In this document: one piece after another, positions 34,470-64,000 of the stretch
Position numbering within the stretch: position 1 is the stretch's first letter
How the letters are laid out: every line of letters starts with the position of its first letter
From: an uncultured Gelidibacter sp.
Lineage (GTDB): Bacteria > Bacteroidota > Bacteroidia > Flavobacteriales > Flavobacteriaceae
Direction: 5' to 3'
Assembly (NCBI RefSeq): GCF_947500795.1
Contig: NZ_CANMTE010000002.1
Location: 186,001-250,000, forward strand
DNA length: 64,000 bases
Position numbers and translations under genes: made by a program
Notes under the pieces: generated by a model
Database searches by the model: none
Told to the model about the DNA's origin: nothing
The model's input: the letters and a program-made list of their open reading frames with translations, nothing else

Positions 34470-36158
34470 TTAACTAAATATTTGTTGCAATATTTTTCTT
34501 GTTATGAGATAGGTTGGTTTGACGCCCGAAGTTCCCAATCCACCAGAAGCTAACGTACTCCCCGTTTCTAAAGGATTATCACTCGCGTAATACGCATATC
34601 TTACCTTAACATTAGGATTGATACTTCCTCTCACTTTTGAAGCCGCCTGAATGGCCTTTTGATAATGCGCGCCTTCCATTTCCAATCCGATGACATTCCA
34701 CGTGGAATTGAAAAAGAATTTCAAGATTTCTTTGTTTTGAAGCGATGTTCCTAAAACAGTAATCATGGAACCTTCATAAACATTGATGCCATGACCTTCT
34801 AAATCAGACTTTGAAAGCTCATTGTCAAACGGATAATTATCTGCTGTACCTTCAAATATATGCGCGGACGGAATCATTATATCTCCTTTTCCACCTTCTA
34901 AAATTCCTGCTTTTCCCATGATGGAAATAGAATCTATATTCAGGTGAATTTGCTTGTCCTTGAGTTTAATCGGTTTTAGCAATTCATCAATGGTTTCATA
35001 AGCTTGCTCACCAAACGCATAATCCATAACGAAAAGTACGGGTTTTTCTGAATCATCCAGCATTTTAACGCCCTCTAAATCTGTTTTAAGAAAATCAATC
35101 TTAGCGGTATCAAAAATTTGAACGTCTATGTTGGTTCCTGAGGTATCAGGAATGTAAATCATCCCTCTTTGCAGTGCTTCTTTAGTAACCTTATTGCGCA
35201 ATTCTTGATTTTCCTTTTGGCTTAAAGCTTCATAAACTTCAAAAATATCCTTTTTAGACGCTAAAGGTTTTAGTGCTTGCGGCGCAAAAAGCGAATTCAT
35301 AACACTATGCATGTTCGCACTAATCACGTGAATAGGACGCTCAATAAGGCCGTTTTTCATTAACGCATCCTTTATGGTGTCTGCCCAAACTTCACCGTGA
35401 ATATGGTGCCCTAATCGCTCTCTTAGCACCGGACTGAAGGTTACCGTACGTTTATTGTTATTTACAACCTCTTCAATAGCCAATTTCCCAAGCCAATACA
35501 CTAAATGTAATAAACGTTCAGGCTGGTTTGGCAATGCGAAGGCATTATAAACTTCAGTTAATTCATTGAATGTTCTACCTAAAATATTTGCGGTATGGGT
35601 AATGGCAACCTCTCTTGCCTCTTGGGTTAGTTCCTCATTGGAAAGTACCGCCTTTTCTAATTTTATCCAATCCCTGGTGGTTGTTCCCTGCTCATCCACA
35701 AGGACGCGCTTGCTAATTTTATGGGACTCCACAAACATAAACGTCAAGTGGGTGAGAATATCATAAATTTCTGAACGACCACGCGTAATTTCAATGTTCA
35801 TTTGCTCGTCGTCAATTCGGAAACAGTTACGTCTTCTTTTTGGTGGAATGATTACCTTAAAATGCGAATTGGTATAGCCTTCATCACTGGTAAGGTTAAT
35901 GAATGTACACTCTTCAATGCCGTGTGGCAATCGATCAACTACATAAAGTAACCCTTCCAATTCCGCTTTCTCCTCACCGATAGAACCATAAATTTCTGGT
36001 CTTAAAAGCAATAAGGATTCGCGAAGTGTTTCACCAGAAATGCCCATAGGTTTGTAAAATCCGCGATTAAACAAATGGCGCATTGTTATATACATTCTTT
36101 CAATTGCATTTGAGCTCTCCTGAGCTCGCGTTCTCGCATGGTGTTTTTTATTACTCAT
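34470..36158 (-). CDS. DUF6909 family protein
   Basis: The 562-residue soluble protein of unknown function resembles DUF6909 of Bacteroidota. The N-terminal half is helical (RMYITMRHLFNRGFYKPMG; SEIYDILTHLTFMFVESHKI). In the C-terminal half, IMGKAGILEGGKGDIMIPSA and VIGLEMEGAHYQKAIQAA resemble the phosphate or ribose loop and the MEGA motif of nucleoside phosphorylases; this is my own reading and needs a structure search. It sits between GH3 (28 bp upstream) and the Wzz-like gene (9 bp downstream), suggesting a link to polysaccharide assembly. Confidence 0.75.
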   Translation of the reverse strand: MSNKKHHARTRAQESSNAIERMYITMRHLFNRGFYKPMGISGETLRESLLLLRPEIYGSIGEEKAELEGLLYVVDRLPHGIEECTFINLTSDEGYTNSHFKVIIPPKRRRNCFRIDDEQMNIEITRGRSEIYDILTHLTFMFVESHKISKRVLVDEQGTTTRDWIKLEKAVLSNEELTQEAREVAITHTANILGRTFNELTEVYNAFALPNQPERLLHLVYWLGKLAIEEVVNNNKRTVTFSPVLRERLGHHIHGEVWADTIKDALMKNGLIERPIHVISANMHSVMNSLFAPQALKPLASKKDIFEVYEALSQKENQELRNKVTKEALQRGMIYIPDTSGTNIDVQIFDTAKIDFLKTDLEGVKMLDDSEKPVLFVMDYAFGEQAYETIDELLKPIKLKDKQIHLNIDSISIMGKAGILEGGKGDIMIPSAHIFEGTADNYPFDNELSKSDLEGHGINVYEGSMITVLGTSLQNKEILKFFFNSTWNVIGLEMEGAHYQKAIQAASKVRGSINPNVKVRYAYYASDNPLETGSTLASGGLGTSGVKPTYLITRKILQQIFS

Positions 36159-46311: not shown

Positions 46312-46327
46312 CGTTCCACGTGGAACA
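46312..46327. promoter_or_regulatory. parS: parS-like ParB-binding site 1 (15 of 16 bases)
   Basis: CGTTCCACGTGGAACA contains the perfect palindrome GTTCCACGTGGAAC, which equals the chromosomal parS of pseudomonads (TGTTCCACGTGGAAC) apart from the first base. It lies 20 bp beyond the mnmG stop. Confidence 0.8.
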
Positions 46328-46346
46328 TCTGAATTCTATTTCTAAT

Positions 46347-48218
46347 TTATCTGCCCATATAAACTAAAAGCACCGAAACATCACTTGGCGAGACACCGCT
46401 AATACGAGATGCCTGCGAGATAGATCGCGGCTGTATTTTTTCTAATTTCTGACGTGCTTCAATACTCATAGATTTCAATTGAGAATAATCAAAATCGGCT
46501 GGAATTTTAAGATCTTCTAAACGATTTAATTTATCTGCATTATTCTTTTCCTTGTCAATATATCCAGAATATTTCACCTGAATTTCCGTCTGTTCTATAA
46601 TTTCCTTATCGAGATCATGTTCTTGAATGTACGATTCAACACTATCGATTTTACGAATATCATCCATTGAGATGTTCGGTCTTGCAAACACTTTAAACAA
46701 CTTCCCCGATTGATTTACCAAAGCCGAATCATTTGCTTCCAGAATCGGATTTATAGATACAGCAGATACGCTAGTGTTCTTAAAAAACTCAACAAAAGAT
46801 TCCGCTTTAGAATGCTTTTCTTCCATTCGTTTTAGTCGCTTTTCACCAACTAATCCAAGTTCATAACCTTTTGGCGTCAATCTTAAATCTGCATTATCTT
46901 GACGCAATAAGGTTCTATATTCAGCTCGTGATGTAAACATTCGGTACGGCTCTTCTGTACCTTTCGTAATCAAATCGTCAACCAATACACCAATATACGC
47001 TTCATTACGCTTTAAGATAAATTCATCTCTCTCCTGCACTTGAAGCGCTGCATTTATACCAGCCATCAAACCTTGAGAAGCCGCTTCTTCGTACCCCGTA
47101 GTTCCGTTAATCTGACCTGCAAAAAACAGACCTTTTACCAACTTCGTTTCTAAAGTATGCTTCAATTGTGTTGGCGGGAAATAATCATATTCTATAGCAT
47201 AACCAGGTCTGAAAAACTTCACTTTTTCAAAACCAACTACTGAGCGCAATGCTTTAAATTGAACATCTTCTGGAAGTGATGTAGAGAATCCATTCACATA
47301 TACTTCCACAGTATTCCAACCTTCAGGTTCTACAAATAATTGATGACGATCCTTTGTAGCAAAACGATTAATCTTATCCTCAATAGATGGGCAATATCTT
47401 GGTCCGGTACTTTGAATACGTCCATTAAACATAGGCGAACGATCAAAACCTTCGCGCAATAAATCATGCACTAACGGACTTGTATAACTCATATGACAAT
47501 CGCGTTGGTGTGTCAATGGTTTGGTTACATCAGAAAAGGAGAATTTCTCCGGCACAGCATCTCCAGGTTGCACCTCCATTCTAGAATAATCTAAAGAACG
47601 TCCATCAACTCTTGGAGGCGTTCCGGTTTTCATTCTACCAGATTCAAAACCTAATTGCACCAATTGTTCGGTTATTCCCGTAGCCGCTCTTTCACCTGCT
47701 CTACCACCACCAAAACTCTTATCACCAATATGGATTAATCCGTTCAAAAACGTACCATTTGTAAGTACAACAGATTTCGCTTTGATCTCTAATCCTAAAG
47801 AGGTTTTTACACCAACAACCTGATCGTTTTTAACAATCAAACCCGAAACCATATCCTGATAAAAATCAAGATTAGGCGTTCGCTCCAACATCAATCTCCA
47901 GTCTTCAGCAAAACGCATACGGTCACTTTGCACCCGCGGACTCCACATAGCAGGGCCTTTGGATTTATTAAGCATTTTAAACTGAATAGCCGACGTATCA
48001 CTCACAATTCCACTATAACCACCAAGCGCATCAATTTCGCGCACAATTTGCCCTTTCGCAATTCCACCCATAGCAGGATTACAGGACATTTGTGCAATAT
48101 TCTGAAGATTCATAGTGATTAAAAGCGTAGCACTTCCCATGTTGGCAGCAGCAGCAGCAGCTTCACTACCCGCATGACCTCCACCAACAACAATCACATC
48201 ATATTCGTTTTCAAACAT
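46347..48218 (-). CDS. mnmG: tRNA uridine-34 5-carboxymethylaminomethyl modification enzyme
   Basis: The 623-residue FAD enzyme, formerly GidA, acts with MnmE to build the cmnm5 group on wobble uridine of several tRNAs. Motifs are DVIVVGGGHAGSEAAAAAA (FAD), CNPAMGGIAKGQIVREIDALGG, GTFLNGLIHIG and GLFFAGQINGTTGYEEAA. Full normal length. Both flanks carry a parS-like palindrome. In many bacteria gidA lies next to the origin and parAB; parAB themselves are not visible here. Confidence 0.97.
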   Translation of the reverse strand: MFENEYDVIVVGGGHAGSEAAAAAANMGSATLLITMNLQNIAQMSCNPAMGGIAKGQIVREIDALGGYSGIVSDTSAIQFKMLNKSKGPAMWSPRVQSDRMRFAEDWRLMLERTPNLDFYQDMVSGLIVKNDQVVGVKTSLGLEIKAKSVVLTNGTFLNGLIHIGDKSFGGGRAGERAATGITEQLVQLGFESGRMKTGTPPRVDGRSLDYSRMEVQPGDAVPEKFSFSDVTKPLTHQRDCHMSYTSPLVHDLLREGFDRSPMFNGRIQSTGPRYCPSIEDKINRFATKDRHQLFVEPEGWNTVEVYVNGFSTSLPEDVQFKALRSVVGFEKVKFFRPGYAIEYDYFPPTQLKHTLETKLVKGLFFAGQINGTTGYEEAASQGLMAGINAALQVQERDEFILKRNEAYIGVLVDDLITKGTEEPYRMFTSRAEYRTLLRQDNADLRLTPKGYELGLVGEKRLKRMEEKHSKAESFVEFFKNTSVSAVSINPILEANDSALVNQSGKLFKVFARPNISMDDIRKIDSVESYIQEHDLDKEIIEQTEIQVKYSGYIDKEKNNADKLNRLEDLKIPADFDYSQLKSMSIEARQKLEKIQPRSISQASRISGVSPSDVSVLLVYMGR

Positions 48219-48242
48219 AGTTTGTAAATTTTAATTCTTAAA

Positions 48243-48258
48243 TGTTCCACGTGGAACA
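48243..48258. promoter_or_regulatory. parS: parS-like ParB-binding site 2 (perfect palindrome)
   Basis: TGTTCCACGTGGAACA is a perfect 16-bp palindrome identical to the well-known parS type. It lies 24 bp upstream of the mnmG start codon, inside the expected leader. Confidence 0.85.
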
Positions 48259-62344: not shown

Positions 62345-64000
62345 TTACAATTCTATAATTTGTGGTTTTCCAATCAGCGTAAAATCGAGGTGTTTTTTAA
62401 CTAAATCGGTGTTTTTAACCTTCACTACGACTTCTTCACCAAGTTGATAACTCACGCCAGATTTTTTTCCAACCAAGGCATATTCTGTTGCATCAAATTC
62501 ATAATGATCATCATTCATATCTCTAACAGATACCATGCCTTCACATTTATTTGAAACGATTTCAACATAAATTCCCCAATCTGTTACACCAGAAATAACT
62601 CCTACAAACTCTTCATTTTTATGGTTTTCCATAAATTTGATCTGCATGTATTTAATAGAATCACGTTCTGCCTTGGTAGACAGATTTTCCATATTGCTGG
62701 AATGGTTACATTTCTCTTCGTAAATAGCTTCATTAGCCGATTTTTCACCATCTAGGTAACGTTGCAACAAACGATGCACCATCACATCAGGATAACGACG
62801 GATTGGCGACGTAAAATGCGTGTAATAATCGAATGCTAAACCATAATGGCCGATGTTATGCGTGGTATATTCCGCTTTACTCATCGTTCTAATGGTCAAC
62901 GTATCCACTAAATTTTGTTCGGCTTTACCTTGAACATCTTTTAACATCCCGTTTAAAGAAGATGAAATACTATTGCGATCCTTGAAATTAAGTTTGTATC
63001 CAAATTTAGAAACTACGCCTTGCAATGCCGCTAATTTAGTAGCATCTGGCTCATCATGCACACGATACACAAAAGTCTTTTTAGGCGATTGTTTTCCAAT
63101 ATATTGTGCTACTTTTTTATTGGCAAGCAACATAAATTCTTCAATCAATTTGTTGGCATCTTGACTGGTTTTAAAGAACACCCCTATCGGATTTGCCTGC
63201 TCATCAAGATTGAATTTTACTTCTACTTTATCAAAAGAAATGGCGCCTTCTTTCATACGTTCACGACGCATAATTTTTGCCAATTCGTCCATTTTTAAAA
63301 CAGCATCAGCAATATTTTGATCAACGTCATAAGCCTCTCCTGTAATAGAAACTTCTTCTGGAATGTGGGTCCCGTTGGTTTCAATGATGGCTTGCGCTTC
63401 TTCATAAGCAAAACGAGCATCACTGTAGGTTACCGTTCTTCCAAACCACTGCGATTTTATTTCAGCCTTATCATTCATCTGAAACACTGCAGAAAATGTA
63501 TATTTTTCTTCGTTTGGACGTAAGGAACACGCATTATTTGACAGTACTTCCGGAAGCATAGGAACTACCCTATCCACCAAATACACTGAGGTTGCACGCT
63601 CATAAGCTTCATCATCTAAAATAGTACCTTCTTGCACATAATGCGATACATCAGCAATGTGTATTCCGATTTCAAATAAACCATTATCCAGCACTTCAAA
63701 TGATAACGCATCATCAAAATCTTTTGCATCTTTCGGATCTATGGTAAACGTAAGCACGTTTCTCATGTCGCGACGCTTAGCAATTTCAGCTTCGTTAATG
63801 GACGTATCTAGGTTGTTGGCATATTCTTCTACCTCGGCAGGAAATTCGTATGGAAGCCCATATTCTGCCAGAATAGCGTGAATTTCAGTATTGTGTTCTC
63901 CAGGTTTTCCTAAAACTTTTAAGACGGCACCTTTAGGTGAATCTTCGTTTTTTTCCCAACTTTCAAGAGATACTAAAACAACATCGCCATTTTCAGCTTT
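62345..64000 (-). CDS. rnr: Ribonuclease R (5' end beyond the window)
   Basis: The ORF track starts at the internal Met at 63766, but the frame stays open for 78 more codons to the window edge (KAENGDVVLVSLE..), so at least 551 residues are coded here. The RNB catalytic core TFTIDPKDAKDFDDALSFE holds the acidic metal ligands, with HYGLAFDYYTHFTSPIRRYPD further on, and a C-terminal S1 domain (EEFVGVISGVTDWGIYVEIV). It degrades structured RNA 3' to 5'. Cold-shock domains should lie in the missing part. Confidence 0.95.
   Translation of the reverse strand, partial: KAENGDVVLVSLESWEKNEDSPKGAVLKVLGKPGEHNTEIHAILAEYGLPYEFPAEVEEYANNLDTSINEAEIAKRRDMRNVLTFTIDPKDAKDFDDALSFEVLDNGLFEIGIHIADVSHYVQEGTILDDEAYERATSVYLVDRVVPMLPEVLSNNACSLRPNEEKYTFSAVFQMNDKAEIKSQWFGRTVTYSDARFAYEEAQAIIETNGTHIPEEVSITGEAYDVDQNIADAVLKMDELAKIMRRERMKEGAISFDKVEVKFNLDEQANPIGVFFKTSQDANKLIEEFMLLANKKVAQYIGKQSPKKTFVYRVHDEPDATKLAALQGVVSKFGYKLNFKDRNSISSSLNGMLKDVQGKAEQNLVDTLTIRTMSKAEYTTHNIGHYGLAFDYYTHFTSPIRRYPDVMVHRLLQRYLDGEKSANEAIYEEKCNHSSNMENLSTKAERDSIKYMQIKFMENHKNEEFVGVISGVTDWGIYVEIVSNKCEGMVSVRDMNDDHYEFDATEYALVGKKSGVSYQLGEEVVVKVKNTDLVKKHLDFTLIGKPQIIEL

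Follow-up and report, generated by a model that had tools for sequence, protein, structure and literature searches.

Two palindromes on either side of mnmG are predicted to be the ParB-loading parS sites of a flavobacterial chromosome

The window analysed here is a stretch of 64,000 nucleotides on contig C2 (608 kb) of an uncultured Gelidibacter sp., whose genome comprises 3.46 Mb in 19 contigs and is 99.97% complete. Within this window mnmG (gidA) is the sole gene between two short palindromes:

46312..46327, no strand assigned: putative parS site downstream of mnmG, CGTTCCACGTGGAACA, with its inner 14 bp forming a perfect palindrome, 19 bp past the mnmG stop codon
46347..48218, minus strand: mnmG, encoding a tRNA uridine-5-carboxymethylaminomethyl(34) synthesis enzyme (TIGR00136, 844.7 bits at a cut-off of 524.85 bits)
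48243..48258, no strand assigned: putative parS site upstream of mnmG, TGTTCCACGTGGAACA, a perfect 16-bp palindrome, 24 bp 5' of the mnmG start codon

This arrangement had been described in the original prediction and we could confirm it. The upstream site matches the 16-bp palindrome TGTTYCACGTGRAACA in 16/16 positions and the downstream site in 15/16. The prediction had also called it very unlikely that two such 16-mers occur within 2 kb by chance, which is borne out by the window, where only these two sites match if up to three mismatches are allowed (mean of shuffled sequences 0.24), and by the relatives described below. The genome-wide motif scan that had been named beforehand as a check revealed no scattering either: the exact 14-mer GTTCCACGTGGAAC occurs twice in the whole 3.46-Mb genome, both copies being located at mnmG and 1.9 kb apart, and all remaining matches carry two mismatches. 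The reversed pattern, used as a control, gave no exact match in this genome, from which the T/A form GTTTCACGTGAAAC and mixed forms are absent as well.

To see how far this layout extends we searched 60 relatives for the exact 14-mer and found it in 40 of them, mostly in exactly two copies at a spacing of about 1.9 kb; the reversed-pattern control matched in none of the genomes. Once the C/T and G/A position is allowed to vary, 14 of the 16 genomes checked have sites, which are clustered and number one to three per genome. We then compiled 80 named mnmG loci, their flanks measuring up to 10 kb each (1.58 Mb in total), in which all exact matches to GTTYCACGTGRAAC (185/185) are at most 1.3 kb from mnmG, with no match inside mnmG or elsewhere, these loci being related by descent and the counts therefore non-independent events. 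Exact sites are found upstream in 75 of them, downstream in 69 and on both sides in 66, and scrambled palindromes searched in the same flanks never came below two mismatches in 3180 trials. Where the sites of the relatives vary, they do so at the usual parS position, and the only exchanges are C/T and G/A. In a phylum-wide sample an exact site is present near mnmG in 27/30 loci, and in distant families outside Flavobacteriales the downstream site is often the only one left. The nearest named relatives of this mnmG are from the Flavobacteriaceae Olleya, Algibacter, Bizionia and Winogradskyella (82-90% identity), and the bracketing of mnmG by parS is kept across much of this family.

The original prediction had further placed the replication origin close to the two sites. 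The raw GC skew of the window alone was uninformative because of gene orientation, a problem solved by using the cumulative GC skew at codon position 3, corrected for gene strand. This skew goes from negative to positive beside the parS sites in all five genomes analysed, namely our own and the relatives G021, G027, G030 and G038. In our genome the minimum is located at C2:244.8 kb, from where the curve stays flat up to 250.5 kb (about 58.8-64.5 kb of the window), and the parS sites are at 232-234 kb. The corresponding minima are at 918 kb in G021 (parS at 932 kb), at 3533.3 kb in G030 (parS 17 kb beyond the end of the record) and at 1465.6 kb in G038 (parS at 1436-1438 kb); the weakest case is G027, with a local minimum at 1188.6 kb and parS at 1165-1167 kb, where one region left of parS breaks the trend. 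The skew minimum is thus found about 10-30 kb from the sites in the five genomes, which supports the proposed vicinity of the origin.

A candidate for the origin itself is located just outside of the window:

62345..64000, minus strand: rnr-like ribonuclease R gene, presumably so from recognition of its sequence, running off the window end and being the left neighbour of the candidate oriC
C2:250544-251273 (L175:544-1273), 0.5 kb to the right of the window: candidate oriC, the rnr/rpiB intergenic gap of 730 bp

The densest cluster of DnaA-like boxes lies in this AT-rich gap upstream of rpiB in 5/5 genomes (95-134 kb examined in each), 16-20 kb from the parS sites, although the looser box set used here was chosen after enriched words had been seen in the same intergenic regions, making the box test, but not the skew test, partly circular. 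Words such as TTATTAACA and TGTTAACA are repeated in the rnr/rpiB gap, which is conserved in relatives, and are enriched against a Markov control in 30 genomes. In our genome the gap contains one perfect TTATCCACA and is the AT-richest stretch of 124 kb; perfect TTATCCACA boxes alone fail to mark oriC in every relative, as they are absent in G021 and G030. About 5 kb beyond the gap rnpA is found, which is an old neighbour of the origin, and the distance between rpiB and parS is 3-42 kb in 25 of the 26 genomes having both on one contig. We conclude that oriC is most likely the AT-rich rnr/rpiB gap, about 16 kb from the parS sites, and with the skew minimum and the DnaA-box cluster at most about 30 kb away in five genomes the sites would be positioned near this predicted origin, as is typical for parS.

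In our genome dnaA is located on contig C1, parAB on C3 and the parS pair on C2; these contigs are unjoined and the own distances between parS and parAB or dnaA are lower bounds only. In nine finished or nearly finished relatives the parS pair is 0.17-1.5 Mb away from parB (mostly 0.75-1.5 Mb) and 0.54-1.9 Mb from dnaA (mostly 0.9-1.9 Mb), as worked out by hand on circular chromosomes with some lengths rounded. The earlier remark that neither parAB nor dnaA is seen in the window is therefore correct and can be refined, since finished relatives have them at distances ranging from hundreds of kb to over 1 Mb. A parS site is normally found near parAB, which is usual but not obligatory, and here the two are not close. 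In G027 (finished, 4.04 Mb) dnaA is located at C1:3286636 and parS at 1166 kb, so that dnaA is almost opposite the predicted origin.

The proteins expected to act on such sites are encoded together on contig C3:

L011:620-1384, contig C3: ParA family ATPase, in one operon with ParB
L011:1384-2283, contig C3: ParB (ParB_N E=1.3e-33), the single ParB_N protein of the genome

The structurally solved relatives of this ParB are ParB/Spo0J proteins, which are the best ones, and Noc, and it carries the CTP motif GERRFRA at position 95 (pattern GERRxRA). Caulobacter ParB bound to parS uses Q162, G170, K171, R173, N178, G201 and R204 (PMC7383237), and these seven contact residues are present as Q156, G164, K165, R167, N172, G195 and R198 with a constant offset of 6; one further position deviates, the conserved Ser172 (Caulobacter numbering) being Lys (K166). 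As R173 and G201 are the parS-type residues, which are replaced by Q and R in Noc (PMC7383237), and our ParB has the former and not the latter, its recognition residues would fit the two sites. A ParB with a matching DNA-binding domain, whose absence would have spoken against the original prediction, is thus encoded, as judged from its parS-type recognition residues. The top-scoring NCBIfam model for this protein is the Noc model, with a score of 241.6 that does not reach the cut-off of 315. In G020, G023 and G027 another ParB_N match was seen in open frames of about 600 aa; this second ParB-domain protein is longer and probably belongs to mobile elements.

A further palindrome of the window was considered as a third parS and set aside:

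34695..34708, no strand assigned: degenerate palindrome ATTCCACGTGGAAT inside a coding sequence, two mismatches, 11.6 kb from the parS pair

Its outer G/C is lost symmetrically. Since the base that Arg173 of ParB reads is altered on both sides, it probably does not function as parS.

The sites, their uniqueness as a few clustered copies of a 16-bp palindrome, their position around mnmG, the nearby skew minimum and DnaA-box cluster and the distant operon for ParA and a ParB with matching residues and CTP motif were all computed directly. They argue strongly for the two palindromes being the chromosomal ParB-loading centromere (parS) of a ParABS system, a reading we hold with high confidence and in which the binding of ParB is a prediction. 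It is established for ParABS systems elsewhere that ParB sits on parS, closes upon binding of CTP and slides outward, and that ParA drives the movement of the complexes. By homology we infer ParB binding, loading and segregation for this flavobacterium as well: each 16-mer would be bound by ParB dimers through their helix-turn-helix domain, the bound ParB would close into CTP-dependent clamps, these would slide outward over the neighbouring DNA with mnmG and the origin-side genes, and ParA would pull the ParB complexes so that newly copied origins separate. The textbook model also includes ParB-directed loading of Smc-ScpAB. As neither an Smc over the cut-off nor any match to ScpA was found in 21 Flavobacteriales genomes (our own, G000, and 20 relatives; controls positive), such loading at parS is unlikely here and ParB-parS seems to work without Smc-ScpAB.

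Chromosomal parS sites were reportedly surveyed by Livny et al. in 2007, with TGTTTCACGTGAAACA said to be their consensus. The original prediction had equated the two palindromes with the parS of pseudomonads, of which the parS reading and the sequence are supported, the core of the Pseudomonas parS being near-identical to the sites described here, whereas the organism is a flavobacterium and not a pseudomonad. Pseudomonas has four sites, parS1-4, clustered by oriC (PMC4368675, PMC10419367), and thus differs from our flavobacterium in their number but resembles it in their position by the origin. More generally, our sites share with the chromosomal parS of ParABS systems (TGTTTCACGTGAAACA; structures in PMC7383237) the 16-bp palindrome, the few copies, the location near an origin defined by skew and the parS-type residues of ParB, but there are two sites only, which are fixed around mnmG and lie far from both parAB and dnaA. 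In gut bacteria including Bacteroides caecimuris and Muribaculum, a Hi-C study describes parS clusters as marking the origin, which is not always at dnaA, and reports no known condensin in the two Bacteroidetes studied (PMC10197239). In contrast to our case these are Bacteroidales rather than Flavobacteriales, and the passages considered do not name the position at mnmG (PMC10197239).

As both sites are probably transcribed with mnmG and the downstream one folds into a hairpin followed by a T-rich tail, the palindromes could also be RNA elements of the mnmG transcript, namely a hairpin in the 5' UTR and an intrinsic terminator. We rejected this explanation, which appears very improbable, since hairpin and T tract are not kept in the relatives, where a T-rich tail follows 20/72 downstream sites vs 21/113 upstream ones. 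Furthermore, asymmetric variants result in a C-A mismatch more often than in a G-U wobble (44 vs 22), although an RNA stem would favour the reverse, the central bases that would form the loop are near-invariant across the relatives as for a DNA-binding site, and the fold z-score of the upstream site is just -0.93. Hardly more credible is a dedicated pair of transcription-factor operators, or a Noc-type site, regulating mnmG instead of serving as a centromere. An operator would suit the upstream site only 24 bp in front of the start codon but not the second site behind the gene, and it would account neither for a sequence that is that of a known parS, varying at the usual parS position only, nor for the sites tracking the skew minimum. 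For Noc one could invoke the top NCBIfam match of ParB. Noc binding sites are related 16-bp palindromes read by a ParB paralogue; yet these (TATTTCCCGGGAAATA; PMC7383237) begin with A and have C as their sixth base where our sites have G and A, and our ParB has the equivalents of Arg173 and Gly201 and not the Gln and Arg of Noc.

It could also be that the sites do double duty, combining ParB loading with a ParB- or transcription-dependent effect on mnmG. Throughout the family the sites keep their places on either side of mnmG and the gene itself is free of them, but a fixed 16-mer is simply tolerated in intergenic gaps, the upstream site is often missing outside Flavobacteriales, and no link between the two functions was found, making this idea doubtful. 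Similarly speculative, and in our opinion unlikely, is that parS-mnmG-parS is functionally constrained as a unit, in that transcription of mnmG between the ParB-loading sites shapes how the ParB clamps travel or links segregation with tRNA modification, in a lineage that segregates its origins with ParABS but lacks Smc-ScpAB and has parAB at a distance of about 1 Mb.

A parS near the origin is a known kind of element. For parS flanking mnmG in Bacteroidota we found no published description in the literature covered, which did not include the main parS survey of 2007 (Livny), and it may be partly known already that in Flavobacteriales parS keeps strictly to mnmG and lies far from parAB and dnaA. 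In Flavobacteriales and a large part of the Bacteroidota dnaA misleads as a landmark of the origin, and mnmG with its flanking parS, followed by the rnr/rpiB gap, could serve as a signpost for the origin domain there. The layout also raises the testable question of how ParB-parS works in a lineage in which no Smc or ScpA was found, and the further question of why the sites stayed by mnmG while parAB and dnaA are far off. In some Flavobacterium species the region upstream of mnmG contains arrays of 4-12 parS or parS-like sites (L040:8812-9940; also L042, L044, L039 and L242), some of them lying in repeats that measure about 117 bp and have CACATG as their core.
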